A program made the translations under genes and the position numbers. Positions 47,884-60,807 of a stretch of 64,000 nucleotides of DNA are shown in pieces. The DNA is taken from positions 124,001 to 188,000 of the forward strand of contig NZ_JAETGO010000037.1 in NCBI RefSeq assembly GCF_016765695.1, read 5' to 3'. The notes under the pieces were generated by a model. That model was not told where the DNA came from. It was given only the letters and a program-made list of their open reading frames with translations, and made no database searches. The DNA is from Sporosalibacterium faouarense. GTDB taxonomy: Bacteria > Bacillota > Clostridia > Tissierellales > VENL01. Positions within the stretch are counted from its first letter, which is position 1. Every line of letters starts with the position of its first letter.

Positions 47884-48378
47884 TTAAAATAATAATTGTC
47901 ATTACATTTTTTTATCATGGACTTTCAATATCTCTCTCCTTAATTCAGTAACAGATTTTCACTTATACATTTTACATTCCAATCCTTTCTAAATAACTCT
48001 CAAATTCAAATTTAAACCAACCTTTAATTTTAGCTTTTTCACTTATTGCTACTGTTAAGATATCATTTTGTAATTTTAATATGTTTACAATAGCCGCTCC
48101 AATTAGCTTGTCCAAACTTTCAGTTCTTCTTTTAAATGCTTTGTGGTCTATCTACAGTCTTGTCATCTATTGTGCAACCTCTTCTTGTTTGCGACAGCTT
48201 AAATCTCTACATAAAGTTGTTTATAATTACGAGATTATGAACTCCTAATACAGTGACTAACCCAGTTGGCGAGAAAATGTATTGCGCATGTCCCTAAATC
48301 CTGACCACAGTTCACCTGTAGATACAGCATTTATCATACGCTACCCAAGTTAATGCCTTTTATAGTGTATTAAGATAT
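47884..48378. other. Spacer with gene remnant and F2 repeat
   Basis: On the minus strand 47972-48142 reads FKRRTESLDKLIGAAIVNIL then AISEKAKIKGWFKFEFESYL and a stop, without start; upstream text continues in another frame, so this is a decayed gene tail. The stretch 48178-48342 is F2 copy g. No other element supported. Confidence 0.4.
48178..48342 (-). repeat. F2 repeat copy g (diverged)
   Basis: On the minus strand it starts GCGTATGATAAATG, contains TTTAGGGACATGCGCAATAC and CAACTGGGTTAGTCACTG, and ends GCTGTCGCAAACAAG. These blocks match copies a and b in order and orientation, with diverged outer ends. Confidence 0.55.
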
Positions 48379-49389
48379 CTAAATAGAATCACTATAAATA
48401 TTGTCTAGATATTCAATAGTTTTTCCATCAAGAATTTTTTCACCATTCTTTATTTCTATAGAATGGTGATATTTTAATAAAAATTTAAAAGGATTTCCCA
48501 CACAACTTTTCAACTCATCTAAACCAAATACATCTTCAATATTTCTCCCCATAGAGTATCCTAGCGGATGAATAATTTGGTTTCTCATTAGAAAATCATA
48601 TAAATTAATAGATTCTTTTTGGAATTCTAATTTGTTTTTTAACATTTCCCCAAACTTTTTCATATAACTAACTGGGTTATTCAAAACATCTTCCATTAGT
48701 ACTTTTTCCATAAATCCCAAGAATTCATATATAAAACTTAATCCTTTAAAGCTACACATATCGGCTATTCCTTCATTTTCTAAAGCAAATAGAGATTTGA
48801 CTACATCTTCATGTCCTTCTTTCGTCTGCTTATAGATACCTCTAATATGACTCTTCATATAATGATGTAGCTCATGAGCTAATAAATCATTAACCTGCTC
48901 TTCATTCAATTGACTTAAAAAAGAGACATCTAGTAATACTTGTCCTTTTTCAACGCAAGCATTATTCATAAATATGTATAACTCCATATCAATTTCAATA
49001 TCCGAATCCAAAACAGGTAAATATTTTAATGCTTTTGAAATAAAATCTTTTTCATTAATTATTTCTTTTATTCTTTCTACATTGGCGTACAAGCTTTCAA
49101 AGTTATTTAACGCCCATAAAACAGAATCAATAATATTCTCTTTTATTGGATCTTTTTCTATATTACTTTCAATTAATTTCAAGTGTCTACAATATGCTTC
49201 ATAAAACAAATTTACCCAGTGTTCTCTCTTTGTAAGACCAACATTTTTACCAAATAACTTTATCATTTTCTCATATGAAAATGTATTAAATAATATTTCT
49301 ATGTCTTGTTTTTTTAGTACTTTTTTAGTATTAAATACATCGTAAAAGCAATCAAATCCTTCAGTAGATAAAGTGATTTTTACTCCCAT
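48379..49389 (-). CDS. HELHH zinc-protease-like protein (DUF5700/DUF2268-like)
   Basis: 336 residues. EEQVNDLLAHELHHYMKSHI near 178-197 contains the HELHH zinc motif; about 30 residues on, FALENEGIADMCSFKGL offers the E-x-x-A-D third-ligand region. The N-terminal half is helical. The layout follows cytoplasmic DUF5700/DUF2268-type putative Zn proteases, with unknown substrates. AGGAGGAG precedes the ATG. Third distinct HExxH protein of the window. Confidence 0.78.
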   Translation of the reverse strand: MGVKITLSTEGFDCFYDVFNTKKVLKKQDIEILFNTFSYEKMIKLFGKNVGLTKREHWVNLFYEAYCRHLKLIESNIEKDPIKENIIDSVLWALNNFESLYANVERIKEIINEKDFISKALKYLPVLDSDIEIDMELYIFMNNACVEKGQVLLDVSFLSQLNEEQVNDLLAHELHHYMKSHIRGIYKQTKEGHEDVVKSLFALENEGIADMCSFKGLSFIYEFLGFMEKVLMEDVLNNPVSYMKKFGEMLKNKLEFQKESINLYDFLMRNQIIHPLGYSMGRNIEDVFGLDELKSCVGNPFKFLLKYHHSIEIKNGEKILDGKTIEYLDNIYSDSI

Positions 49390-49419
49390 AGAATCTCCTC
49401 CTTATATGAATACTCGTGA

Positions 49420-49560
49420 CATATAATATCTTAGTATTTACGCTACCTTCAAGCTGAAAGTCTAAGAAATGCCTCTTAGTAAAGATTTTCTTTCAGTAAG
49501 AATATTTAGTACACAATCTCCAAAAGTTTGTCGCTAGTGCATATCTGTGAAAACATTGAA
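49420..49560 (-). repeat. F2 repeat copy f
   Basis: Plus-strand text ATATAATATCTTAGTATTTA and CGCTACCTTCAAGCTGAAAG, then TTAGTAAAGATTTTCTTTCA and TTAGTACACAATCTCC, aligns block by block with copy a. It lies between the HELHH gene and a Nudix gene, in the standard orientation. Confidence 0.6.
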
Positions 49561-49660
49561 GACCACTATCTGTTTTATGTGTGATGGCAACTGTAGCATT
49601 GTATTTAATTAATAAACCTGAAATATTTTATATAAGTAGTACTAGTTAATTATTGCATTT

Positions 49661-50119
49661 CTATCTTTTTAATAAATATTCTTCATGTACTTCGATTTCA
49701 TTAGATGAATTTATTTGATACCCTACACATGAAAAACTTGATTGATACTCTAATGCTTTCCTCAATCTTAACTGTTGTTTTGCTCTTACTATGTCTAGAG
49801 CTTCCTCCTTAGTAACCCACTTTACTTCACTACTTTCATCACTGGTTCGCAACTCACCTGATATGTATTTGCATATAAAGTCAATTGTAACAATTGTTGG
49901 AACTTCTTTAACTCCATTGTATCCATTCTTCTTTTTTGTATTTGAATATATTCCTACAATATTTTTTATGTCAACATTAACGCCTGTTTCTTCTTTTATT
50001 TCTCTAATCAATCCTTGTATAACGGTTTCACCTGGTTCTACGATTCCACCTGGATACTCCCTCCCTTTACGAGGATTATTTATAAGTAAAATTTCCACTA
50101 TATAATTGGTTTTCAACAT
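49661..50119 (-). CDS. Nudix hydrolase with F1-fused, shortened N-terminus
   Basis: 152 residues. Nudix box GGIVEPGETVIQGLIREIKE and ETGVN near 24-48 is complete. Only about 20 residues precede the box, fewer than the usual 30-40, and the ATG (50117-50119) lies directly beside F1 copy e, about seven bases below TATAAT, leaving essentially no leader or ribosome site. So the gene seems to have lost its 5' end to the repeat and may be translated leaderless. Substrate unknown. Confidence 0.8.
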   Translation of the reverse strand: MLKTNYIVEILLINNPRKGREYPGGIVEPGETVIQGLIREIKEETGVNVDIKNIVGIYSNTKKKNGYNGVKEVPTIVTIDFICKYISGELRTSDESSEVKWVTKEEALDIVRAKQQLRLRKALEYQSSFSCVGYQINSSNEIEVHEEYLLKR

Positions 50120-50175
50120 GAATTCATTATATCAAATATTTCATATTAATAACACTTCATACAATAAATACCATA
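50119..50175 (-). repeat. F1 repeat copy e
   Basis: Strong match to copies d and f; extended -10 TGATATAAT at 50126-50134. It touches the Nudix start codon. The terminator hairpin ATCCATA/TATGGAT with T-run lies at 50180-50212. Confidence 0.8.
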
Positions 50176-50974
50176 ATTAAAGCAAAAAAATAAATCCATA
50201 ATTTCTATGGATCTTGCACTTAGTACATGAAAAAATATTTGATATTGAAAGCATAAGTCAAAATATTCAAAACTATCTCAAAATATATAGATTGATTTAT
50301 ATCCTTTCTTCTGAATCAATTGTTTATACCATAAGAAAAACTGGGTCAATAAAGAAATATCCAATATTTGATAGGGAATAAAAATGTTGAAGAAAGCACT
50401 GCTGTCTATTAAGTATTATAAATATTGTTTGACAACACGATATAACTGAAATGATAAACTGTATTTTAACCAACCTTTTATTTTATCTATATCAGGAAGA
50501 TTAACTATAGAATTTGGTTTGAGAGGATACTTAAATAAACAACTTACATCTTGCCGTCATTCAGGACTAGATATCTCTACACTAACAGGAACTTGAGATA
50601 ATTGCCACAAATACTGGAAAAGTAAACTCTCAATGTCTTTATCCCTAACTGGTAACTCTATTTATAACCCAGATTTAGATTCTGAATATTTGCTATACAA
50701 TGAGCTTGTTACTTATGATAATTATAAAATCTTGTTTAATTTATAGTGATAGCCTTATATCGTTATTTGTATTATTCAAGAAAAATATATAGTTAGGAAG
50801 GACTTGAAATATTTAAACTTACTAGAGTAAAGTTTATATATTTTTCTTGAATGTTTTTAATATTTTAGTTAGGTCCTCATATACTTTATCAGACAAGATT
50901 TAACTATATGTTCAGAATCTTAGAGAATTTATAATCTTTAAATACACATATTTTTTTGCTTTCTGATTTATATA
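50176..50974. other. Long spacer with gene debris and an 18-bp inverted repeat
   Basis: 50180-50212 is a minus-strand terminator (ATCCATA/TATGGAT, then T-run). On the minus strand 50416-50538 reads LFKYPLKPNSIVNLPDIDKI then KGWLKYSLSFQLYRVVKQYL and a stop. On the plus strand 50480-50750 gives readable pieces (LTGNSIYNPDLDSEYLLYNE) without start. Both look like remains of lost genes. The short KIKGW string also occurs in the remnant at 47972-48142. Confidence 0.35.
50774..50852. repeat. Inverted repeat, MITE-like
   Basis: ATTCAAGAAAAATATATA at 50774-50791 has its exact reverse complement at 50835-50852; the 43-bp interior carries another small palindrome (AAACTT/AGTTT). Followed by GTTTTTAATATTTT, it could also stop plus-strand transcripts. 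Confidence 0.6.
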
Positions 50975-51697
50975 TTATAAAATCTTATTTAAAAACTCCT
51001 TAGTCCTTTTCTCTTTAGGGTTCTTGAAGAACTCTTCAGGTGACCCTTGCTCTATCACATATCCATTGTCCATAAAAAGAACCCTGTTGCCAACTTCCTT
51101 TGCAAATCCCATTTCATGAGTAACTACTACCATAGTCATCCCTTCATTGGCTAATTCCTTCATAACCTGTAGCACTTCCCCTACCATTTCTGGATCTAAA
51201 GCTGAAGTAGGTTCATCGAATAGCATAACCTTAGGACTCATCGCAAGTGCTCTAGCAATAGCTATTCTTTGTTTTTGTCCTCCAGATAATTGAGATGGAT
51301 AGTTTTCTGCCTTATCTTCAAGTCCTACTCTCTTTAGAAGATTTAATGCTAAAGCCTCCCCCTCTCTTTCGACTAAACCTTTCAGCTTCTTAGGAGCAAA
51401 GCATATATTTTCAAGAACTGTCATATGAGGAAATAAGTTAAATTGTTGAAACACCATTCCCATCTGTTGTCTAATAACATTTATATTATTATTCTTTGTT
51501 AATATAGATTGATTTTCAAGTAAAATGTCTCCAGAAGTTGGTTGTTCAATCAAATTTAAGCATCTTAGGAACGTACTCTTTCCCGAGCCACTTGGTCCTA
51601 TCACAACGACAACTTCGCCTTTGTGAATTACTTCATTGATTCCATTTAAAACGTCTACTTTCCCAAATTTTTTATATAAATTTCTTATTTTAATCAC
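50975..51697 (-). CDS. Polar amino-acid ABC transporter, ATP-binding protein
   Basis: 240 residues, GTG start overlapping the permease gene by 8 bp. Walker [11 protein letters not shown] (33-42), Q-loop [14 protein letters not shown], signature [15 protein letters not shown] (136-150), Walker [13 protein letters not shown] (157-168) and H-loop [10 protein letters not shown]. The GlnQ/HisP-type sequence marks it as the ATPase of a polar amino-acid importer, working at the inner membrane with the next two genes. Confidence 0.95.
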
Positions 51698-52370
51698 CTT
51701 GACTCATTCTCCTTTCGGCAACTCCTAATAGCTTAGACAATGTAAATGTCATAATAAAGTAGATAATGGCAGCTATAATAAGAGGTTCAAAGGGCTGAAA
51801 TAAATTTCCTCTAACAGTATCTGCATTATACATGAGCTCTTGAATACCTATAATTGATACAATCGATGATTCCTTAATAACAACAATAAATTCATTTCCT
51901 AATGCAGGTAGTATGTTTTTCAAAGCCTGAGGAATGATTATGTTCTTCATAGCCATAGCATGAGGCATCCCTAAAGATCTAGCTGCCTCCATTTGACCTT
52001 TATCAACTGCTTGTATACCTGCTCTAATTATTTCAGCTACATAAGCCGCACTATTAATGGATAGAGTGATAATTCCAGCTATAAAATCTCCATAGGTATC
52101 TCCTATAACAGGTATTGCAGTAAAGTCAACACCCATTCTAGGTAATCCATAATAAATTATATATAATTGCACCAACAATGGAGTCCCCCTTATAAACTCT
52201 ACATATGATGCACTAATCCACTTAATTATTTTTTTCTTAGAAAGTCTCATAAGAGCCAAAAGAGTTCCAAGAATTACACCAATAATTACTGTAAAAAATG
52301 AAAGTAGTATTGTATTTTTACTTCCTTCTAAAAAAAACAAATAATACTTACTTAAAAAACTAAAATCCAT
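51690..52370 (-). CDS. Polar amino-acid ABC transporter, permease
   Basis: 226 residues with five hydrophobic segments typical of HEQRo-type permeases. The EAA loop reads [20 protein letters not shown] near 139-158. The usual [19 protein letters not shown] lies near 56-74. It forms the channel of the importer and is translationally coupled to the ATPase gene. AGGAGG-like text lies upstream. Confidence 0.95.
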
Positions 52371-52482
52371 TCTTATTTACCTCCTATTCTACTTATCTTT
52401 TGTTTGGTAAAAGTGTTTAGAAACTAGGGAAAAGGTCCACCCTAGTTTCTAATGAATATAAGAGTTTTGTATATTTATACAT

Positions 52483-53310
52483 TTATTCAATCAATTCTGT
52501 AGCTTTAGTTACGAAATTTTCAATTAGTTTTTCTTTCATCAAACGGTCTAAAGTATTGTTTATTGCATTAACAAGTTCAGTACTTCCCTCCTTAAGGGCT
52601 ACTGCAGACCCTCCTTCTTCCTCATCAAATTTGATTTCAGAAACCAAAAGATCACTATTCTTTGATACATATGCCTTTGCTACACCAATCTCTACAACAA
52701 CTGCATCAATCTTACCATATTTTAGCTCAAGCATGAGATCTGATACTTTTCCTAATGCCTTTATTTGACCTCCTGGAATTTGCTCAGTTGCTATTTCTTG
52801 CTGAATAGATCCTTTTTGAGCTCCTATTTTTTTACCTTCTAAATCTTGTAAAGATGTTATATTTTCTACATTATCTTTTTTTACCACTAAGGCTTGTACA
52901 GTTCTATGATATATCTTTGAAAAGTCAACATTCTCTTCTCTATCTGGAGTAGGCGTCATTCCTGCAACAACAAAATCAACATTTCCTGAATCTAATGCAG
53001 CTAATAATCCCTCAAACTTCATATCCTTTATTACTAGCTCAACTTCAAGATCCTTAGCAATTTCCTTTGCAATTTCAATATCAAATCCAACTATCTCATC
53101 CTTACCATCTATTTCTTTATGGAACTCGTAAGGTGGATAATCAGCGCTTGTCCCTAGTACAATCTTACCTGAAGCTTTTATTGCTTCTAATTGACTTTCT
53201 TGCTTATTTACATCTACTTTTTCAGTTGTAGACCCACATGCTATTAATCCTAGAACCAATACTCCTATTAGTGATACTAAAAAAAACTTCTTAAATTTAT
53301 TTTTTGACAT
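52483..53310 (-). CDS. Polar amino-acid ABC transporter, substrate-binding lipoprotein
   Basis: 275 residues from ATG 53310 (AAGGGGGAT upstream). Lipobox GLIACG, Cys25. SBP family 3 features: VLGTSADYPPYEFH near 50, GFDIEIAKEIAKDLEVELVI near 76-95, GLLAALDSGNVDFVVAGMTP near 103-122 and VSDLMLELKYGKIDAVVVE. The ligand is an amino acid; the T-box upstream may tell which. It is followed by the permease and ATPase genes. Confidence 0.93.
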   Translation of the reverse strand: MSKNKFKKFFLVSLIGVLVLGLIACGSTTEKVDVNKQESQLEAIKASGKIVLGTSADYPPYEFHKEIDGKDEIVGFDIEIAKEIAKDLEVELVIKDMKFEGLLAALDSGNVDFVVAGMTPTPDREENVDFSKIYHRTVQALVVKKDNVENITSLQDLEGKKIGAQKGSIQQEIATEQIPGGQIKALGKVSDLMLELKYGKIDAVVVEIGVAKAYVSKNSDLLVSEIKFDEEEGGSAVALKEGSTELVNAINNTLDRLMKEKLIENFVTKATELIE

Positions 53311-53465
53311 TATTAAATCCCCCTTTGATAGTTTCTTTATCCGAGAAAATTGCATATTAAGATTCTGGTAAGAATGTATTTTACTTGTATATATGCAATC
53401 CCCTACTCAACTTACATTGTATCTACATATGAACTTATCAACCGGTTGAAAACAGTTTTTTATGC

Positions 53466-53735
53466 AATAAAAAAACTCATCTCTTATAATTAAGAGACGA
53501 GTAAAATCCCGCGGTACCACTCTTTTTGATATGACTATGGCATATCCTCCTCTTCCCCGTAACGGTGGGATCCGTATTTTCCTACTACTATTTCAAAAAA
53601 TCTCCTCATGGGCTCTTTTCACTATAACTAGATTACTAGACTCACACCAACTCTAGCTCGCTTAAATCATCATTACACTTACTCTCCCAATCACTGGATT
53701 AATATTTAATATTTAAACAAAATTTTGTATAAGTA
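53466..53735 (-). promoter_or_regulatory. T-box riboswitch of the amino-acid transporter
   Basis: On the minus strand a stem I region starts near 53695 (GATTGGGAGAGTAAG), with AGCGAGCTAGAG and GGTGTGAG in its distal half. The T-box sequence AGTGGTACCGCGGG lies at 53508-53521 and a terminator CTCGTCTCTTAATTATAAGA with GATGAGTTTTTTT at 53471-53503. The specifier is probably AAG (Lys) at 53615-53617, after GAA at 53618-53620 in the loop opposite AGAGTAA. Uncharged tRNA binding would allow read-through to the transporter. The lysine call is an inference. Confidence 0.85.
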
Positions 53736-53737
53736 TG

Positions 53738-53766
53738 ATTATACTTGGATATATTACATTTGTCAA
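53738..53766 (-). promoter_or_regulatory. Strong sigma-A promoter of the T-box operon
   Basis: Perfect TTGACA (53761-53766 on the complement) and TATAAT (53738-53743) with a 17-bp spacer, about 40 bp upstream of the T-box stem I. Confidence 0.9.
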
Positions 53767-53994
53767 CACTAAATTAATAAAAACAAAAAAACTAGCTATG
53801 ATAACATAATCATTTATCATCAGCTAATTAAGTTATAAAAATAATATATTAATCCTTATAAACCTTATATTTTAAAGAGTAAGATGACCCAGAATCAATA
53901 CCAGCAAAACCAAGTATAAAATGCTATGATTTGCAAATCACTACTCTATATCTAGATTTCATAATAACTGTATCTTTTAACAAATACTTTCTCG
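53767..53994. other. Spacer without recognised gene
   Basis: AT-rich text between the T-box promoter and F2 copy d. No open gene, repeat or hairpin that can be supported. Confidence 0.4.
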
Positions 53995-54190
53995 CATATG
54001 TCAGATAACACCTTTTTGCTTACAAGACTTTGGAACTGTACCCTATCAGAATGCTGACTTGGTAAATTTTTGCTCCCAGTGAAATGCCTTTGAATTTGAC
54101 TCCAATGGAATACATTACCAATAAAAAACAGTGTCTACAACACTTAAAACTTAATCTTTGGTGCATCCTTGCATAAATATTTTTTATACG
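53995..54190 (-). repeat. F2 repeat copy d
   Basis: On the minus strand from GCGTATAAAAAATATTTATG to GGTGTTATCTGACATATGCG. Blocks GGATGCACC, AAGTGTTGTAGACACTG, TTTCACTGGGAGCAAAAA and GGTACAGTTCCAAAG match copy a. The TAA stop of the radical SAM gene lies inside the first arm (GCGTATAA). Confidence 0.65.
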
Positions 54191-55221
54191 CTATTTTCAT
54201 TCGTAACACTCTTTAGAAATTCATATGGCCATTTATACAGAATATCATTATGTGTATACAGAATATCATTCTTTTTTTCTAATTCTTTTTCTAGTTTCTT
54301 TCCTAGTTCTTTTATAGTTATATTTTCTAGCAATCTGATAAGTGGTGGTCGCTCTCTTTCAGCTTTCTGTATTATTTTATTTAATCTCTCTAGTTTAAGA
54401 TTTCCTAGCTTAAATCCTTCCTTACTCTTTTTTATTCCTTTAAAATAATAAGGATTCATGTTTTGAAAATACACATCAAAGTTAGAATCAATATGTAGTT
54501 CCAATTTATCTCTTTGGAGTTGAAATGCTGGTTTGTTCCATTTATCATCTCTCTTAACTTTATTCATCCATTCAGATTCACTATATCTTTCTCTTGGTAT
54601 GATAGGATAAATCAGTTCAACTTCTTTCATTTGTTTTCTTGTGAAATATAACTCTTCTAGTTTCATTGCTCTACCTTGATACATATATGTCGTTACAATA
54701 TAATCTTTTTCACTAATCCCTAAGCTTTTAAGTATCCTAATGACTTCACTAATCTCTGAAATATTCTTATTATTAATAAATAAAATATTCCAAAATTTAA
54801 ATCCCTGACTCGAAGCTTTTTTTATTAGTGAAATAAGTTTTTTAAAAGCACCTTTATAATGAACAAAGCTGTCATGGGTTTCATTTAACCCGTGAAAAGC
54901 TAATTGTATATCTTTTATTCCAAATTCTTTCATAAATTTAAGTTCATTATCCGAAATTTCATAGACCCCGTTCGTTGATAATGTATCTCTTTTATATCCA
55001 TAGTCATTAGATAACTTCAATATTTTGATAAACTCAGGGTGATTTGTTACATCAAAAAGTGGAAAAAAATGACCAATTTCAGAATATTCCTTCATATTAT
55101 TCAAAATTAGTTCTATTTCATCTAAGCTCATATACTCTTTAGTATGTTTCCCGTACGTTAAACAGTGATCACATGCACATTGACAGCCTGTAATTTGTGC
55201 TTCAACTCTTAATCTTTTCAT
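54184..55221 (-). CDS. Radical SAM enzyme of unknown substrate
   Basis: 345 residues. The N-terminal cluster motif is CACDHCLTYG preceded by TGCQ, giving CxxxCxxC in GCQCACDHC (about 13-20). TLSTNGVYEI near 80 and DIQLAFHGLNETHD near 103-116 are strand motifs of the radical SAM barrel. The C-terminal part carries a repeated NDILY (KNDILYTHNDILYK), a small tandem duplication. No auxiliary cluster and no RiPP precursor seen nearby. GGGAGG lies upstream of the ATG. Confidence 0.85.
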   Translation of the reverse strand: MKRLRVEAQITGCQCACDHCLTYGKHTKEYMSLDEIELILNNMKEYSEIGHFFPLFDVTNHPEFIKILKLSNDYGYKRDTLSTNGVYEISDNELKFMKEFGIKDIQLAFHGLNETHDSFVHYKGAFKKLISLIKKASSQGFKFWNILFINNKNISEISEVIRILKSLGISEKDYIVTTYMYQGRAMKLEELYFTRKQMKEVELIYPIIPRERYSESEWMNKVKRDDKWNKPAFQLQRDKLELHIDSNFDVYFQNMNPYYFKGIKKSKEGFKLGNLKLERLNKIIQKAERERPPLIRLLENITIKELGKKLEKELEKKNDILYTHNDILYKWPYEFLKSVTNENSV

Positions 55222-55254
55222 AAATCCTCCCTAATTCTACTCAATATTGAAAAA

Positions 55255-55408
55255 TTGCGTATAACGTTTTTGTGTTTGCGACACCTTCGAACTAGACCTT
55301 AGTGGAATCCTCCTCGGTGGAGCTTTGATCCCAGTTAAAAGATGTAGCACTCATATCCCTAAGCTTTTTCTTCCCTAGACGCCTTTATGTAAACATATTA
55401 TTATGCAA
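55255..55408 (-). repeat. F2 repeat copy b
   Basis: Second best copy. Ends TTGCGTATAACG (55255) and TTATTATGCAA (to 55408) are partial inverted repeats. Inside: GTGTTTGCGACACCTTCGAA, TAGACCTTAGTGGAATCCTC, GGTGGAGCTTTGATCCCAGT and GATGTAGCACTCATATCCCT on the plus strand. It lies downstream of a GNAT gene, upstream of the radical SAM gene. Confidence 0.75.
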
Positions 55409-55516
55409 TTGTTCCTGCCATTTTTTATAACCACTTCTTTATTTCTAACAGATATAAAATCTTATCTCCCTTTAAAACTCATACTTGTCTTGCAGAACCC
55501 TCCCTTAAGTTGCGGA

Positions 55517-56089
55517 TTATAACTTTTCATAATCCTGCTTTAGTATAGAATATAATTCTAAATCAATAAGTCCTTTTTCTTTCCATATTTCACCTTGGCG
55601 TATAGTTCCTTCATATACAAATTCATTTCTTTTTAAAACTTCTTTAGATCTAACGTTTTCCGCCATTACAAATGCTTGTATTCTATTGACTCTTATTTTT
55701 TCAAACATATAACCCGTTATCATCTTTACCACTTTTGTTGCAATGCCTTTACCCCAATAATTCTCATTTAACCTATATCCAATGGTTATCATATTAATCT
55801 TTTTATTAATATCAAAAATCTCAGCAATTCCAATGAGTTTTTTCTCAGGTATAGTAATATAAATTCCTAAAAATATCATCTTCTTTTTATTAAAATCTCT
55901 CTTATAATGTCCTATCATATTTTCAACAGATTTGATATTTTTCCTTGCCTTCCCTGGAATATATTTATAGATTAATTCACTGTTATGTATTTCATAAAAA
56001 TCATTTAAATCTTCTACCTCTATTTCCTTTAGCACTATCTCATTTGATGTTATTACTGGATAACTGCTAAATAGTAATTCGTATTCCAT
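55517..56089 (-). CDS. GNAT acetyltransferase, RimJ/RimL type
   Basis: 190 residues. EVEDLNDFYEIHNSELIYKY, then TIGYRLNENYWGKGIATKVV with the acetyl-CoA loop WGKGIATKV near 112-120, and AENVRSKEVLKRNEFVYEGT, RQGEIWKEKGLIDLELYSIL are characteristic of ribosomal-protein-type or small-molecule GNATs. AGGAGG precedes the ATG. Flanked by F2 copy b downstream. Confidence 0.9.
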   Translation of the reverse strand: MEYELLFSSYPVITSNEIVLKEIEVEDLNDFYEIHNSELIYKYIPGKARKNIKSVENMIGHYKRDFNKKKMIFLGIYITIPEKKLIGIAEIFDINKKINMITIGYRLNENYWGKGIATKVVKMITGYMFEKIRVNRIQAFVMAENVRSKEVLKRNEFVYEGTIRQGEIWKEKGLIDLELYSILKQDYEKL

Positions 56090-56277
56090 TACTCTATCCT
56101 CCTATATATATATTAATATCATTTTTACACTCTAATCTTTAAAACTAGTCTTTTTCTGTCATCTAGCATACCAGGTGTTCAGGGAGTTTGTAAATCTTAG
56201 GGTGGCTACCTTTGATTAACGAATTTTGATGGAACGTATCTGAATCTTAAATTTCATGTTAGATGAAGTTCTTTCAG

Positions 56278-56574
56278 TTACCTGCCCTCATTAATCTTTA
56301 TTTTTTTTATCATACTATATGATTTATAACCCCTCGGATCATTCTCTTTTATAAAAACAATCTTGTATCCTAATTTTTCGTAGAATTTTTTTGTCTGAAA
56401 TTCAGTTGTACCTAAATTAATACTATAGACATTTAACTTCTTTGCTTCTTCTTCTATTTTTAACATAAGACCTTTACCAATTCCTTTTTTTCTATATTCT
56501 TCATTAACTAAAAGCCAACCTATATACATTGAATCTTCAGTAATACTCTTGTGAACTCCTCCAATAATAAAATA
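56278..56574 (-). pseudogene. GNAT acetyltransferase fragment cut by IS110 remnant
   Basis: The 3' part of a GNAT gene is intact: SMYIGWLLVNEEYRKKGIGK with the acetyl-CoA loop, and TKKFYEKLGYKIVF. In frame upstream it still reads IIGGVHKSITED up to about 56574, where a TGA and the inserted IS110 transposase tail begin. The N-terminal half (about 60 residues) is gone. An internal ATG at 56529 could give an 83-residue product, probably without activity. Confidence 0.75.
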
Positions 56575-56802
56575 TCAAAACGTGGGTCTACATACCTTAG
56601 AAAAGCTTTGTATCAAGACACCTGTGAAGGTATTTACAAAAGATCTTCTGGATATGCTAATTCTTTATTAAAAGCTTATTATGATAAAAAAATTAGTGAG
56701 GGAAAACCTTCTAAAGCAACTATTATTGCTACTTTTAACAAACTACTTAGAATTGTTCATGGTATTTCAAAAAGTTGTAAACTTTTTACAATGAATAAGT
56801 AG
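56566..56802 (+). mobile_element. IS110-family transposase C-terminal remnant
   Basis: Plus-strand frame KISKRGSTYLRKALYQDTCE then GYANSLLKAYYDKKISEGKP and ATFNKLLRIVHGISKS is the C-terminal transposase_20 (IS116/IS110/IS902) part, ending at a normal stop. The N-terminal DEDD part is missing. It interrupts the GNAT gene on its left. The 170 bp to its right could include the element's noncoding end; no transposition-competent copy is present. Confidence 0.8.
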
Positions 56803-56978
56803 TTATATTTGATTAGTAACTAGCAGTAGCTTTTTGAAACCGATTTAATTGATAGGTTTATTTACTATGCCTATTTTTACTATATTCTACTTTTTTTAGA
56901 AATATCCTTGACAACTATTAGCTGGTTTATAGGAAGTTGTGACAATTTCCCTCCCTATAGCCTTTACACAATAAAACA

Positions 56979-57797
56979 TTATGATTCTTCTACTCGTGTA
57001 AGCCATTCATTGGTTAATGAGTTGAATAGTTTCTCCTGTTCTATCTGTAAGTTATGACCTGCTCTATCCAATACAGCAAAAGTAGCTCTAGGGTAATTTT
57101 CTAAAATACTCCATGCATCTCTATAACCCACAAAAGTATCTTGTCTTCCTACTATTATAAGAGCAGGCTTGTCTATTTTTTTATTTATTTTATCTACATC
57201 AAATGAGAAATTATATCCATTTTCTTTTAATTGTTCTAAGAATTTATTATCTGCTATTTTAAGACCTGACATTATTTCTTTTTTATACCTTTCATAGTTT
57301 TTTTTACTTTGAACAACTGCTATAGAACTAAACTCTTCAGCATCCTCTAGTGTCAATCTAGATAATAACTTATTATCTTTTACTAAAACAATATGTTCAG
57401 GAACATCTCTCTTTTTGCTATCCGCGATTATGCAAGGACAAATTAATAAAACACCATCTACTCTTTCACTCATATTATAAATTACTCCTCTTGATAAATA
57501 ACTTCCGTATGATTCACCAACAATTAAGAAATTTTCATTTGGAATAATTTCTTCAATAAAATCAATAACAATATCTAACATAATGTCTGAATTAGTAATC
57601 CATTCTGCACTCTCTGATTTTCCCATACCCGGTAAATCAATGTATATTCTTTTGTATCCATCCTTATTATCAAATACAGGCTCCATACAACCAGTCATTA
57701 ATCTATGGTCTGGTGAATAGCCATGTAACATAATAACTGGCTTTCCTTTTCCTTTTATTTCATAATTTATAAATATATCTTTAATTTTGCACTTCAT
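56979..57797 (-). CDS. Alpha/beta hydrolase
   Basis: 272 residues. Oxyanion loop VIMLHGYSPDHRLM near 22-35, IYIDLPGMGKSESAEW near 52-67, nucleophile elbow VGESYGSYLSRG near 96-107, acid in IIVGRQDTFVGY near 217 and His in DRAGHNLQIEQ near 247. A complete triad Ser-Asp-His. Substrate unknown; ester or amide hydrolysis. AAGGAGGG precedes the ATG. Confidence 0.85.
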   Translation of the reverse strand: MKCKIKDIFINYEIKGKGKPVIMLHGYSPDHRLMTGCMEPVFDNKDGYKRIYIDLPGMGKSESAEWITNSDIMLDIVIDFIEEIIPNENFLIVGESYGSYLSRGVIYNMSERVDGVLLICPCIIADSKKRDVPEHIVLVKDNKLLSRLTLEDAEEFSSIAVVQSKKNYERYKKEIMSGLKIADNKFLEQLKENGYNFSFDVDKINKKIDKPALIIVGRQDTFVGYRDAWSILENYPRATFAVLDRAGHNLQIEQEKLFNSLTNEWLTRVEES

Positions 57798-58129
57798 TTT
57801 TACCCTCCTTCATTCTTATACCATTTTCATTCTACTTCAGATTATCTAATGTTATACATAATAAACTACAAAGAATAACTCCGTTATCACTATTTCATAT
57901 ACCATCTTCGTGTTTGTGACACCTTTGAGCTTTACAAGGAATCGCTTATGCCAGGGTAGCCTCTGGGTGACTGACTCGATTAGCGATAAGATGTAGTCGT
58001 ATAATCTCCAAAAGCACTCCCTAGTAGTCCCAAAGTAGTGACTTATTCTTAACTGTAACTTTTAGAATAGCATAAGTGTTTAGTATTAGTTTCTGATGTA
58101 TAAGTAAAACCTAATGTTTCTAATATACT
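57798..58129. other. Spacer with F2 copy c
   Basis: Apart from the repeat at 57895-58055, nothing supported: no frame with start and no further hairpin. Confidence 0.4.
57895..58055 (-). repeat. F2 repeat copy c (diverged)
   Basis: Plus strand CTTCGTGTTTGTGACACCTT, TTACAAGGAATCGCTTATGC and GATGTAGTCGTATAATCTCC match copies a and f. The outer end is CATATACC rather than TATAAC. A region flanking it (TATCACTATTTCATATACC) resembles the flank of copy a (TATCACTGTTTCCTATAAC). Confidence 0.55.
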
Positions 58130-58591
58130 TTACTTAGCTTTATATTTACATGTTCTAAATTTACCTTCAATCCAGAATGTTGCTTCAATAGTTTGAAATC
58201 TTAATAAATAACATTTAGGATCTTCTATCCCTTTTTTGAAGAAATTCCTGTCACAATATTTATCAAATTTTCTTTTTTCATCCATGTTTGTTACTATTTC
58301 AACATTACCAATTAGTGTGACACTGTCACTACCACTATTGTAACAAACACTTGCCCTGGTATTGTTTTCAAAATGAGTTGCTTTTCCATTCAAATGAGAC
58401 CTTTTTGATGTCATAAAATAGATTTGCGCAAAACCATTATTTTTAATTTTTGTAATAGTACATACGCGCGGATACCCCTTCTCATTAATTGAAGCAAGCG
58501 TTACAACTTCACACCTATCTAGTAATTGAGAAGCTTTCTCCTCAATCTCTTTAATCCTTTCTTTTTGAATTTCATAAGCTGTTTTCCCCAT
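58130..58591 (-). CDS. Pyridoxamine-5'-phosphate-oxidase-fold protein
   Basis: 153 residues from ATG 58591 (GGGGGAAAG upstream). VVTLASINEKGYPRVCTITK, FMTSKRSHLNGKATHFENNT and YNSGSDSVTLIGNVEIVTNM give the split-barrel FMN-binding fold, as in general stress protein 26 and PNPOx-like proteins. A role in flavin-dependent reduction or cofactor binding is likely; the substrate is unknown. It is not the vitamin B6 enzyme itself. Confidence 0.85.
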   Translation of the reverse strand: MGKTAYEIQKERIKEIEEKASQLLDRCEVVTLASINEKGYPRVCTITKIKNNGFAQIYFMTSKRSHLNGKATHFENNTRASVCYNSGSDSVTLIGNVEIVTNMDEKRKFDKYCDRNFFKKGIEDPKCYLLRFQTIEATFWIEGKFRTCKYKAK

Positions 58592-58934
58592 AATCTTTCC
58601 CCCTTGTTTTAATAGGTTAATAAATTTCTTAATGTACATAATATGTTTACTAAACTAATAATCAAACATTTCCAAAGAACAACCACGATATCACTGTTTC
58701 CTATAACGTTTTCGTATTTGCGATACCTTCGAACTGGACCTTAAGGAATACTTCTTGGTGAAGCTTCGCTCTCAGTGAAAAAGTGTAGTACACAACGCCC
58801 TAGAGTTTAACCATGGTGTACCCTTGATGTAATATATTGTTATAGGACGTAGTAATACCTTCATCACTGTAGCCCTTAATATAGTATAAAAATCAATTTA
58901 ATTTTACTATAAAACTAACTAGAGATACTGCTCC
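58592..58934. other. Spacer holding F2 copy a
   Basis: 58700-58846 is the best F2 copy. The remainder shows no gene. The sequence outside the repeat ends is AT-rich. Confidence 0.4.
58700..58846 (-). repeat. F2 repeat copy a (best-defined)
   Basis: Exact inverted ends CCTATAAC (58700-58707) and GTTATAGG (58839-58846) enclose a 147-bp unit with inner GATACC/GGTGTA arms. Minus strand order: GTTATAGG complement, CAAGGGTACACC, TAGGGCGTTGTGTACTACAC, TTTCACTGAGAGCGAAGC, TCCAGTTCGAAGGTATCGCA and AACGTTATAGG. The TATAAC...GTTATA arrangement and the arm pair resemble an integron attC layout; a MITE is the alternative. Confidence 0.75.
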
Positions 58935-59459
58935 TCATTTTAAGCCGTTTGGATTTTTAAGCATATAGTTCAATTTATCTTCCCTTCTATCATGCATATC
59001 ATAACAATTCTTTTCTCTATTTAAGAATTCAAATCCAAGCCTATTAAATATTCTTTGCATTTTTGTATTAGACCCCATTGTATCAGCATATATGTATTTA
59101 AGTTTCAAGGTATTGAATACATAATCTATTGCGATTTTAATAGCTTCTGTTCCATATCCCATTCCTTTATATTCATCATTGGCAAGAACAATCCCTAGTT
59201 CACATTGACTTTTCTCAAAACTAACTCTTTTGAAAGACAACTCACCTATTGGCGTTGCATCTGATAAAAATATTCCAACTCTCGGATACCATGACTCCTT
59301 CTCAGTGATAATATCATAGTTTTTATCTACTTTTTCTTTATCATAACTATAAGAATCTGGATCCATTATGGGGTCTGCGATGTACGATTTATAAAATTCA
59401 TGATATTCTTCTCTTGTAAATGTTCTCAAACATATCCTGTCGCCTTGAATACTAATCAT
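58935..59459 (-). CDS. GNAT acetyltransferase, RimJ/RimL type
   Basis: 174 residues. GDRICLRTFTREEYHEFYKS at the start, then CELGIVLANDEYKGMGYGTE with acetyl-CoA loop KGMGYGTEA near 95-103, and NTKMQRIFNRLGFEFLNREK. Typical of diamine or small-amine acetyltransferases, but the substrate is unknown. AAAGGAGGAC precedes the ATG. F2 copy a follows its stop. Confidence 0.9.
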   Translation of the reverse strand: MISIQGDRICLRTFTREEYHEFYKSYIADPIMDPDSYSYDKEKVDKNYDIITEKESWYPRVGIFLSDATPIGELSFKRVSFEKSQCELGIVLANDEYKGMGYGTEAIKIAIDYVFNTLKLKYIYADTMGSNTKMQRIFNRLGFEFLNREKNCYDMHDRREDKLNYMLKNPNGLK

Positions 59460-59769: not shown

Positions 59770-59886
59770 ACTAAAATGAAATGTATTAACGTTTAATATT
59801 TTTAGCGCTTGTCCAAGTGTGGCACACATATCCCTGAAGATTATCCCTAATGCACTTTTGAGCAAACTTTTTACTAGATCGTAAAT
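59762..59886 (-). repeat. Possible F2 repeat copy e (weak)
   Basis: Plus-strand GTGTGGCACACATATCCCTG resembles GATGTAGCACTCATATCCCT in copy b, and TTACTAGATCGTAAATT resembles CCCTAGACGCCTTTATG. The other blocks are not clear. GTAAATTAGGCCC also recurs in the spacer near 43208 (GTAATTTAGGCCC). Confidence 0.35.
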
Positions 59887-59915: not shown

Positions 59916-60770
59916 TTAAGTCAATCCAACATCTTTTAAAACCTGCATAGTTTTATATTGACTAAAGTCTTTAGACAACTTTAACTCTTCTAGATTATAT
60001 TTTAAATCTACTTTTCTATTAAGCTTAATCAATTTTAAATTCAGGAATACTTCCTCTTTGTAATCTAATAATTTTTTCTTAATTCTATCATTTTCAATAT
60101 CATTAATATTATCGTATATACTGCTTAGATTCCCGTGCTTATTAAATAGTTTTTGGGCAGTTTTTATCCCGATACCTGGAACCCCTAGAATATTATCTGA
60201 TTTATCTCCTACAATTGCCTTCATATCAGCTATGAGTGCAGGTTTTAAATTATATTTCTTATCCACTTCTTTTTCATCATATAGTACTGAACTTTTTCCT
60301 TTGGGATAATATACATATACATTTTCATTTACTAATTGTAATAAATCAGAGTCAGTTGAGACTATCACTATTTTATTTTCATTATTATAACGTCTTGCAT
60401 ACTCTGATAATACATCATCAGCTTCTACATTCTCAATTTCACAATGCTTTATTGAAAGATAGTCTAATACTTTCTTTAAATCAGGTAGCTGTATAAATGG
60501 ATTCATATCTTCTGATAAGCTTGACCAATCTTTGATTCTATTGGCCTTGTAATTTGAATCAAGTTGTTGACGAAATGAACCTAACTCACTATCAAATACT
60601 ACAAGAACCTTTTCTGGTTCAAAATAAGATATTGTTTTTAAAAGTGTTCCTGTAAAGCCAACAATTCCATGAATTAACTGATTATTTTTACCACGTATTT
60701 TAGCAGGGAGTCCAAAAAACATTCTAAACAATAGGCTAAATCCATCTATCAATAAAAAATTACATTTCAC
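59916..60770 (-). CDS. 5'-3' exonuclease (flap-endonuclease-like)
   Basis: 284 residues from GTG 60770, which has GGAGG eight bases upstream. The PIN-like active site acids are visible: LLIDGFSLLFRM near 7-18, ENVEADDVLSEYARR near 113-127, VSTDSDLLQLV near 138-148 and GDKSDNILGVPGIGIKTAQK near 188-207, the last also being the H3TH motif that binds DNA. Length and order match stand-alone YpcP/ExoIX-type 5' nucleases and the Pol I N-terminal domain. It would trim 5' flaps and RNA primers. Confidence 0.92.
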   Translation of the reverse strand: MKCNFLLIDGFSLLFRMFFGLPAKIRGKNNQLIHGIVGFTGTLLKTISYFEPEKVLVVFDSELGSFRQQLDSNYKANRIKDWSSLSEDMNPFIQLPDLKKVLDYLSIKHCEIENVEADDVLSEYARRYNNENKIVIVSTDSDLLQLVNENVYVYYPKGKSSVLYDEKEVDKKYNLKPALIADMKAIVGDKSDNILGVPGIGIKTAQKLFNKHGNLSSIYDNINDIENDRIKKKLLDYKEEVFLNLKLIKLNRKVDLKYNLEELKLSKDFSQYKTMQVLKDVGLT

Positions 60771-60807
60771 TCTATCTACCTCCATTTAAATGACGTATTC
60801 ACTTATA

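Follow-up and report, generated by a model that had tools for sequence, protein, structure and literature searches.

Among the systems described so far, those closest to the element considered here are the integrons, whose folded attC sites, use of the bottom strand and attI site are set out in a review (PMC8946536). The integron integrase, IntI, is held to require an extra domain (PMC9668308, PMC8138268), which the paper on archaeal integrons treats as defining (PMC9668308). With regard to the Bacillota (Firmicutes), IntegronFinder 2.0 reported integrons to be very rare, naming a single complete integron and, besides it, a few attC clusters without integrase (PMC9024848), and a review counts the phylum among those with integrons (PMC8618304). 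An integron-like subgroup of simple tyrosine recombinases also has insertion-less members that, in the accessible portion of its description, are not tied to cassette arrays (Smyshlyaev et al. 2021, PMC8138268), and in the open-licence PMC literature (without bioRxiv), as far as its text was accessible, we found no account of an insertion-less recombinase that operates cassette arrays. Here we describe a family of repeats of about 155 bp in a stretch of 64,000 nucleotides from Sporosalibacterium faouarense (contig NZ_JAETGO010000037.1, hereafter C46, positions 124001-188000; the window), which belongs to a genome assembly of 99 contigs with 97% completeness. With high probability, these repeats are the attC-like sites of an integron-like chromosomal cassette array that is likely served by a tyrosine recombinase encoded on another contig, C43; that this enzyme joins the cassettes, and that C46 and C43 are linked, we infer.

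Seven copies of the repeat were detected in the window with a covariance model (R1), all on the minus strand and at E values from 3.7e-27 to 2.5e-5, with the next-best window match at E 0.19:

48165..48344, minus strand, attC-like site a, 35 bp past the stop of the DUF5700 gene (48379-49389); R1 56.8 bits, E 6.7e-10
49414..49576, minus strand, attC-like site b, 85 bp past the stop of the NUDIX gene (49661-50119); R1 63.9 bits, E 2.3e-11
53996..54194, minus strand, attC-like site c, with the stop codon of the radical SAM gene (54184-55221) within its R'' arm; R1 42.3 bits, E 7e-7
55252..55411, minus strand, attC-like site d, following the GNAT acetyltransferase gene (55517-56089); R1 122.4 bits, E 1.5e-23
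57890..58051, minus strand, attC-like site e, following the pyridoxamine-oxidase-like gene (58130-58639); R1 36.8 bits, E 1e-5
58694..58850, minus strand, attC-like site f, the best copy in the window, with CCTATAAC and GTTATAGG at its outer ends, following the GNAT gene (58935-59459); R1 139.7 bits, E 3.7e-27
59779..59884, minus strand, attC-like site g, a weak and shortened copy that follows the 5'-3' exonuclease gene (59916-60785); R1 34.9 bits, E 2.5e-5

Every window copy lies 3' of a stop on the same strand, at a distance of -10 to 106 bases. The first-pass annotation, made from the sequence of the window, had described six copies and a weak seventh in one orientation, each after a stop, and the seven R1 matches recover this set; the exact CCTATAAC...GTTATAGG ends that it gave for the best copy are present at 58694-58850, and the stop codon that it saw inside an arm (54184-54186) indeed falls in the left arm of 53996-54194. 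Because the first profile was seeded with six of the seven window copies, and the alignment of the model contains three window copies, the R1 E values are partly circular, so that a fairer test is a profile of six window copies run against the rest of the genome. This profile detected 23 more copies or parts of copies on other contigs (nine on C25, six each on C3 and C99, and two on C90) and nine more on the remainder of C46, all at E 5e-32 to 8.2e-5. The search for copies over the whole genome that the first-pass annotation had proposed yielded 49 R1 matches at E <=0.01, including some on C8, C19, C26, C38, C80 and C96, with 150 of the 538 first-look candidates scored and the weakest matches close to the threshold. 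Both the profile and the model searches gave one orientation per array. Moreover, several small contigs end within copies, an indication that the copies interrupted the assembly.

The folded structure of the sites was assessed on an alignment (A3) of 38 sites, comprising 18 from the small contigs of this genome, six from the right end of C46, three from the window and 11 from the relatives G011, G001 and G018; the alignment excludes sites below 70 bits, incomplete sites, sites of more than 185 bases and those of loci L073, L075 and L076. From one of the aligned sequences we derived, by hand, a structure with six helices and 37 pairs that comprises outer R''/R' and L''/L' arms, an inner hairpin and an inner branched stem. 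It leaves 84.3% of the cells of A3 paired, compared to at most 42.2% in slid versions, a percentage that leans toward the structure because the structure was read off the same sequences. The covariation score is 0.239, above all 500 shuffles (mean 0.153, standard deviation 0.008), and two-sided changes affect 23 of the 37 pairs (16.9 in shuffles) and 104 cells (44.5 in shuffles). RNAalifold by itself predicted nine pairs, all in the inner part and each with a two-sided change in at least one sequence. Thus, paired R''/R' and L''/L' arms occur together with a variable inner structure, as expected of attC. By eye, no extrahelical base was identified in the sites.

A conserved structure directly after stop codons, folding slightly better on the gene strand, could also belong to transcribed 3' untranslated region elements, such as terminators or RNA stabilisers, that spread by duplication and covary through an RNA function. 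Such a role, however, does not predict the borders at G^TT or the agreement between neighbouring sites that are described below, and at gathering thresholds no Rfam family matches the repeats, the sole window match being a T-box; we consider this explanation highly improbable.

That the repeats delimit cassettes is indicated by their ends. Closure of a cassette at G^TT would place the R'' of one site and the bases after the GTT of the preceding site (the tail) in one cassette, so that the two are expected to match. In the genome itself, where only pairs less than 2,200 bases apart in which both AAC and GTT could be recognised were admitted, the 17 pairs on C25, C3 and C99 match the preceding tail with a mean of 5.35/6, nine of them perfectly; against its own tail the R'' scores a mean of 4.18/6, with 2/17 perfect, and 20,000 shuffles gave a mean of 3.90 and a maximum of 4.82. 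When the own contigs are combined with the relatives G011 and G001, 13 of 26 pairs are perfect; these two relatives alone (nine pairs) are weak on the mean (p 0.078) and have p 0.004 for perfect matches. The test was extended to seven arrays that lie 3' of a recombinase of the same family in named genomes, with the attI-like tail taken as the first tail, the ends read by eye off alignments, and only those copies scored for which an AAC and a preceding tail could be recognised. Their 34 pairs have a mean of 5.26/6, and 24 of them are perfect (an earlier subset of five chosen arrays, with 17/21 perfect, is superseded by this set), compared to no perfect match among 32 and a mean of 3.47 against own tails, and a mean of 3.43 and a maximum of 4.12 in shuffles. 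By array, the perfect R'' matches and the fit of the first cassette to the attI tail are as follows:

Halanaerobacter (L095), R'' perfect in 5/5; first cassette against attI tail, 6/6
Brucepastera (L129), R'' perfect in 6/6; first cassette against attI tail, 6/6
Clostridium CS001 (L093), R'' perfect in 5/6; first copy against attI tail, 4/6
Ignavibacteriae (L100), R'' perfect in 4/6; first cassette against attI tail, 6/6
Alkaliphilus (L097), R'' perfect in 2/5; first cassette against attI tail, 5/6
Peptococcaceae (L083), R'' perfect in 2/3; first cassette against attI tail, 6/6
Algoriphagus (L112), R'' perfect in 0/3; attI tail, 2/6

Since the R'' of a copy matches the bases after the GTT of the preceding copy, a cassette spans the stretch from one G^TT to the next. 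In the fresher arrays, although this is not seen for the two pairs of the window's own C46, the predicted crossover is accordingly placed at G^TT, with the two ends of a single cassette being complementary.

Further evidence comes from cassettes that have apparently moved. In a collection of 145 cassettes and 189 sites from 11 genomes, near-identical cassettes occupy different places. Seven near-identical pairs were inspected. In G208, a genome in a single contig, two cassettes that are 98.2% identical have the same sequence from CCG^TTATCTG to ACG^TTA and then diverge; another pair, 98.0% identical, ends at GCG^TTA, its left end not being clean; and a 95.7% identical pair in G039 (L168 and L169) starts exactly after the base that precedes TTATGTG (A in one, G in the other). 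The remaining pairs have no clean right border. As a separate observation, the match of L168 and L169 ends at R'' and their site interiors differ, as if a site had been exchanged. Furthermore, 135 of the 145 cassettes have an open reading frame (ORF) of at least 80 aa, which in 130 of them is in sense to the site.

These data also bear on the second reading offered by the first-pass annotation, namely that the repeats are miniature inverted-repeat transposable elements (MITEs) or other elements with terminal inverted repeats that were moved in trans by a transposase and lie between genes by chance. A length of about 155 bp is common for MITE-type elements and would suit them, as would the exact 8-bp inverted ends of copy f. 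However, each array keeps to one orientation, the genes occur elsewhere as units bordered by G^TT, attI-like sites stand at the starts of arrays, and in the fresher arrays the two outer ends of a copy agree with the adjacent copy and not with each other; the outer bases at the G^TT borders belong to neighbouring cassettes. On orientation and borders, both of which the first-pass annotation had itself named as points to check, we reject the MITE reading, to which we allot very little probability. The attC-like half of the earlier suggestion holds up on the covarying arms, which exceed shuffles, the single orientation, the GTT cassette ends and the single-gene units that are found elsewhere with borders at G^TTA, and what it had described as exact outer ends is right for copy f but does not carry over to the fresher arrays as a match of a copy with itself.

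An attI-like site adjoining the recombinase gene, as is typical of integrons, was also identified, outside the window and hence beyond the reach of the first-pass annotation. Toward its end, contig C43 encodes a 372-aa tyrosine recombinase (L029:18511-19629), which is followed by repeated CGACA/TCGC blocks and then by GGTGTCGGTAATATTTACG^TTATCGGAAAT, a sequence that resembles the right end of the attC-like sites; an apparent gene start lies beyond, at the contig end. Over the final 20 kb of C43, the six-copy profile finds no attC-like copy. A scan of named genomes returned at least 557 relatives of this recombinase, and among the best 80, which were kept, a contig ends within 500 bp on the 3' side of the gene in 26 loci and on the 5' side in one. 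Of the 68 loci with enough DNA, 18 (nine of them from Bacillota) carry an attI-type GTTANNNGNMAT motif within 300 bp 3' of the recombinase, compared to none on the reverse strand, 2/67 in the upstream stretch and 24 occurrences in 507,079 upstream bases. In nine named loci with repeat sets, the anatomy of the sites was recognised by eye in seven and partly in L125. The 372-aa protein is likely to be the recombinase of the array of this genome, and C43, the small contigs and C46 would, from orientation and contig ends, form one array.

The recombinase resembles IntI without belonging to it. It scores 234.2 bits against NF040815 (cut-off 220) and 219.2 bits against the integron integrase model integrase_gron, TIGR02249 (cut-off 265), and the latter match is in two stretches, with profile region 178-233 missing. 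The spacing between the K motif and LRHSFA is 61 residues in this protein and 60-68 in 75 of 80 relatives (the other five gave no reading), compared to 102 in three IntI proteins; the IntI extra domain around patch III is absent from the family. The catalytic residues R225, K253, H315, R318, H341 and Y350 are present in 29/29 aligned members. Both by sequence profile and by predicted fold (mean pLDDT 80.3, pTM 0.57), the nearest solved structure is Vibrio IntI4 (2a3v), followed by XerA. In a tree of 40 rows, thinned by hand from 57 by dropping partial, long and redundant entries and containing only four IntI rows, support is 100/97.8 for the family plus IntI, 100/99.7 for IntI and 97/79 for the family alone; the recombinase of this genome falls outside the IntI clade, its nearest named relatives being from Bacillota. 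On these values the family is likely the sister group of the integron integrases, its own unity being less sure. Three of four family proteins (234.2, 232.5 and 220.1 bits) reach the cut-off of the XerA-type model NF040815, the fourth scoring 204.6; XerA (4a8e) differs in that it lies outside the clade of the family and IntI. XerA resolves chromosome dimers (PMC8138268), and the family could be among the insertion-less members of the integron-like simple tyrosine recombinases of the same paper.

Could the array instead be a canonical integron that uses an IntI absent from the assembled sequence or supplied in trans, with the C43 recombinase unrelated to it? The fragmented and incomplete assembly would allow for this, and IntI above the cut-off does occur in two of 398 sampled genomes of the same phylum. 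Nevertheless, no canonical IntI above the cut-off was detected in this genome or in any of the eight named genomes that carry the family recombinase, and in the seven arrays the first R'' agrees with the attI-like tail downstream of the family recombinase at 6, 6, 5, 6, 6, 4 and 2 of 6 positions; we therefore regard a hidden IntI as unlikely, if somewhat less so than the MITE and RNA-element explanations. The other tyrosine recombinases of the genome are encoded on C68, C83, C53 and C25. As candidates for the array recombinase, the C68 protein (at 91.6 kb) was rejected, as it groups with XerD, and so was that of C53, a contig that looks to us like a mobile element; the stretches examined on both contigs hold no repeat copies. 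That of C25, a divergent protein of 329 aa encoded in a cassette (L031:7182-8171), is only weakly related and, by eye, lacks key catalytic residues including the first catalytic Arg.

Among the 249 genomes of the order, R1 matches at E 1e-6 under stricter filters were found in 25, that of S. faouarense included. In the 60 relatives listed, all of which are within the 249, sites occur in 9 of 11 that have a close recombinase (a match or fragment with at least 47% identity, sorted by eye) compared to 8 of 49 that do not (p 6.7e-5).

Several observations weigh against the reading of the repeats as attC-like sites of one recombinase-driven array. In C46, which holds the array of the window, only two pairs are testable, and neither fits (1.50/6). 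Among the named arrays, Algoriphagus does not fit (2, 1 and 3 of 6), one Peptococcaceae copy fails at 1/6, and the first copy of Clostridium CS001 agrees imperfectly with its attI tail. The 95.7% identical pair of G039 stops matching at R'' rather than R', the interiors of the sites being different. No bottom-strand preference was seen in the sites, the top strand folding slightly better and the bottom strand better in only 13 of 38 (p 0.036), and wobble pairs have no clear strand bias. GTTRRRY is the R' consensus of integron attC, and the R' core here has this form in only 9 of 38 sites, being mostly GTTAT. The platform and the window array are on different contigs. A family of three or more direct repeats is found downstream of the recombinase in only 11 of the 25 loci with more than 5 kb of downstream sequence (upstream, 6/80), the repeats of L133 do not have the anatomy, and the association across the listed relatives has exceptions in both directions, namely the eight with sites and no close recombinase and the two with a close recombinase and no sites.

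For the window, the cassette reading is taken from the sister contigs because the two testable pairs of C46 show no signal; decay may be the cause of their misfit. A gradient of decay along C46 was not demonstrated (Spearman 0.49, p 0.062), and R1 detected no fossil sites above noise in window positions 1-48 kb. As an observation on the surroundings, positions 1-48000 of the window and C46:104001-205714 cover about 100 kb in which nearly all ORFs are on the minus strand and encode short proteins (14/14, 10/10 and 15/15 in three segments of 10 kb). This stretch is possibly an older array, with no sites detectable in the first 48 kb of the window.

Compared with chromosomal integrons, the system has in common cassettes that mostly hold one gene, in sense to the site at their 3' end, pairing of the R''/L''/L'/R' type, G^TT junctions, an attI-like site beside the recombinase, cargo that includes toxin-antitoxin and defence genes, and a group II intron within a site. 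Unlike chromosomal integrons, it has a recombinase outside the IntI clade that is devoid of the extra domain, an attI-like site located 3' of the recombinase gene, an R' core that is mostly GTTAT instead of GTTRRRY, and sites of about 155 bp with a branched inner structure, in which no bottom-strand bias was seen. On present evidence the system would function as an integron does, without being a canonical integron; we file it as integron-like because no bottom-strand preference is seen, R' is mostly not GTTRRRY, and the evidence consists of sequences.

We propose that attC-like sites close the 3' ends of mostly single-gene cassettes, with the window being part of such an array. A tyrosine recombinase, presumably of the C43 type, would catalyse the joining of cassettes at the G^TTA core; capture would take place at the attI-like site, which immediately follows the recombinase gene on its 3' side, and exchange between attC-like sites able to fold into a branched hairpin, for which the substrate would be single-stranded DNA. 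A HARP-like N-terminal domain of the recombinase may help to read the folded sites. Many family members have about 65 extra residues with a motif like F-Y-S-x-E...G-R-x-W...K-x-W-x-V-P, which are missing from L074, L126, L133 and L155. The matches of this region to HARP are weak: PF07443 remains below its Pfam cut-off of 25 bits (best 15.7 bits; four of eight segments, E 0.011-0.037; the C43 protein is unlisted), HARP 4o66 is second of six in the comparison of the profile with PDB (E 0.067) and ranks first in Foldseek at E 0.19, and VIA gives Z 5.2 for XPB N-terminal domains and 4.3 over 44 residues for 4o66, within the range of unrelated folds. The HARP-like domain is accordingly a lead, not a result. 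In the Belliella member (L120), two copies of the N-terminal motif are apparently present, by eye.

A broader and more tentative proposal, which we hold to be slightly less probable than its opposite, is that a second lineage of integrons exists at least in Bacillota, Spirochaetota and Ignavibacteriota, and perhaps in Bacteroidota and archaea, run by an IntI sister family that has no extra domain and reads folded sites via the HARP-like domain. Such a lineage would never have acquired the IntI extra domain, having a HARP-like domain instead, and therefore may resemble the state from which IntI arose. If the family drives cassette exchange, a class of platforms escapes tools that demand the extra domain, a recombinase may become assignable to some orphan attC clusters, and two sister lineages can be compared to test how the integron integrase originated. 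There is a hint, from a member borne on a plasmid, that platforms of this kind may be mobile as well: in L161, a plasmid of Chryseobacterium sp. SNU WT5, a recombinase with 41% identity to that of C43 precedes genes that are mostly on the same strand, together with an IS110 transposase and a group II intron.

The genes preceding the seven sites of the window, with their Pfam matches, are:

48379..49389, minus strand, putative zinc peptidase (DUF5700), before site a; PF18958, E 6e-40
49661..50119, minus strand, NUDIX hydrolase, before site b; PF00293, E 7.8e-15
54184..55221, minus strand, radical SAM protein, before site c; PF04055, E 5.7e-11
55517..56089, minus strand, GNAT acetyltransferase, before site d; PF13302, E 2.6e-21
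58130..58639, minus strand, pyridoxamine 5'-phosphate oxidase-like protein, before site e; PF01243, E 3.4e-11
58935..59459, minus strand, GNAT acetyltransferase, before site f; PF13302, E 1.2e-20
59916..60785, minus strand, 5'-3' exonuclease, before site g; PF02739, E 3.2e-40

The cargo of C99 includes a dCTP-deaminase-like defence protein, two TIR-type proteins and AbiGi, with 4/10 scanned proteins matching PADLOC, as well as Fic and a YefM/ParE pair in reverse orientation. Some group II introns insert into attC sites, and on C90 such an intron (RF02005, RF00029 and a maturase; L028:632-2379) splits an attC-like site; the start of a second one lies at the contig end (L028:1-119). The relative G018 has, on contigs L075, L076 and L077, composite sites that consist of an attC-like left half, a fragment coding for the recombinase C-terminus and an attI-like right half, in repeats of up to about 420 bp. 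Their right half recalls the Delta-attI-type cassettes of mobile integrons, from which they differ, as far as the accessible text of that description goes, in also bearing a fragment of the recombinase 3' end (PMC12901181). Finally, between sites b and c of the window, a T-box leader (RF00230, 138 bits) is located at 53490-53703, ahead of an ABC transporter operon (50975-53355).

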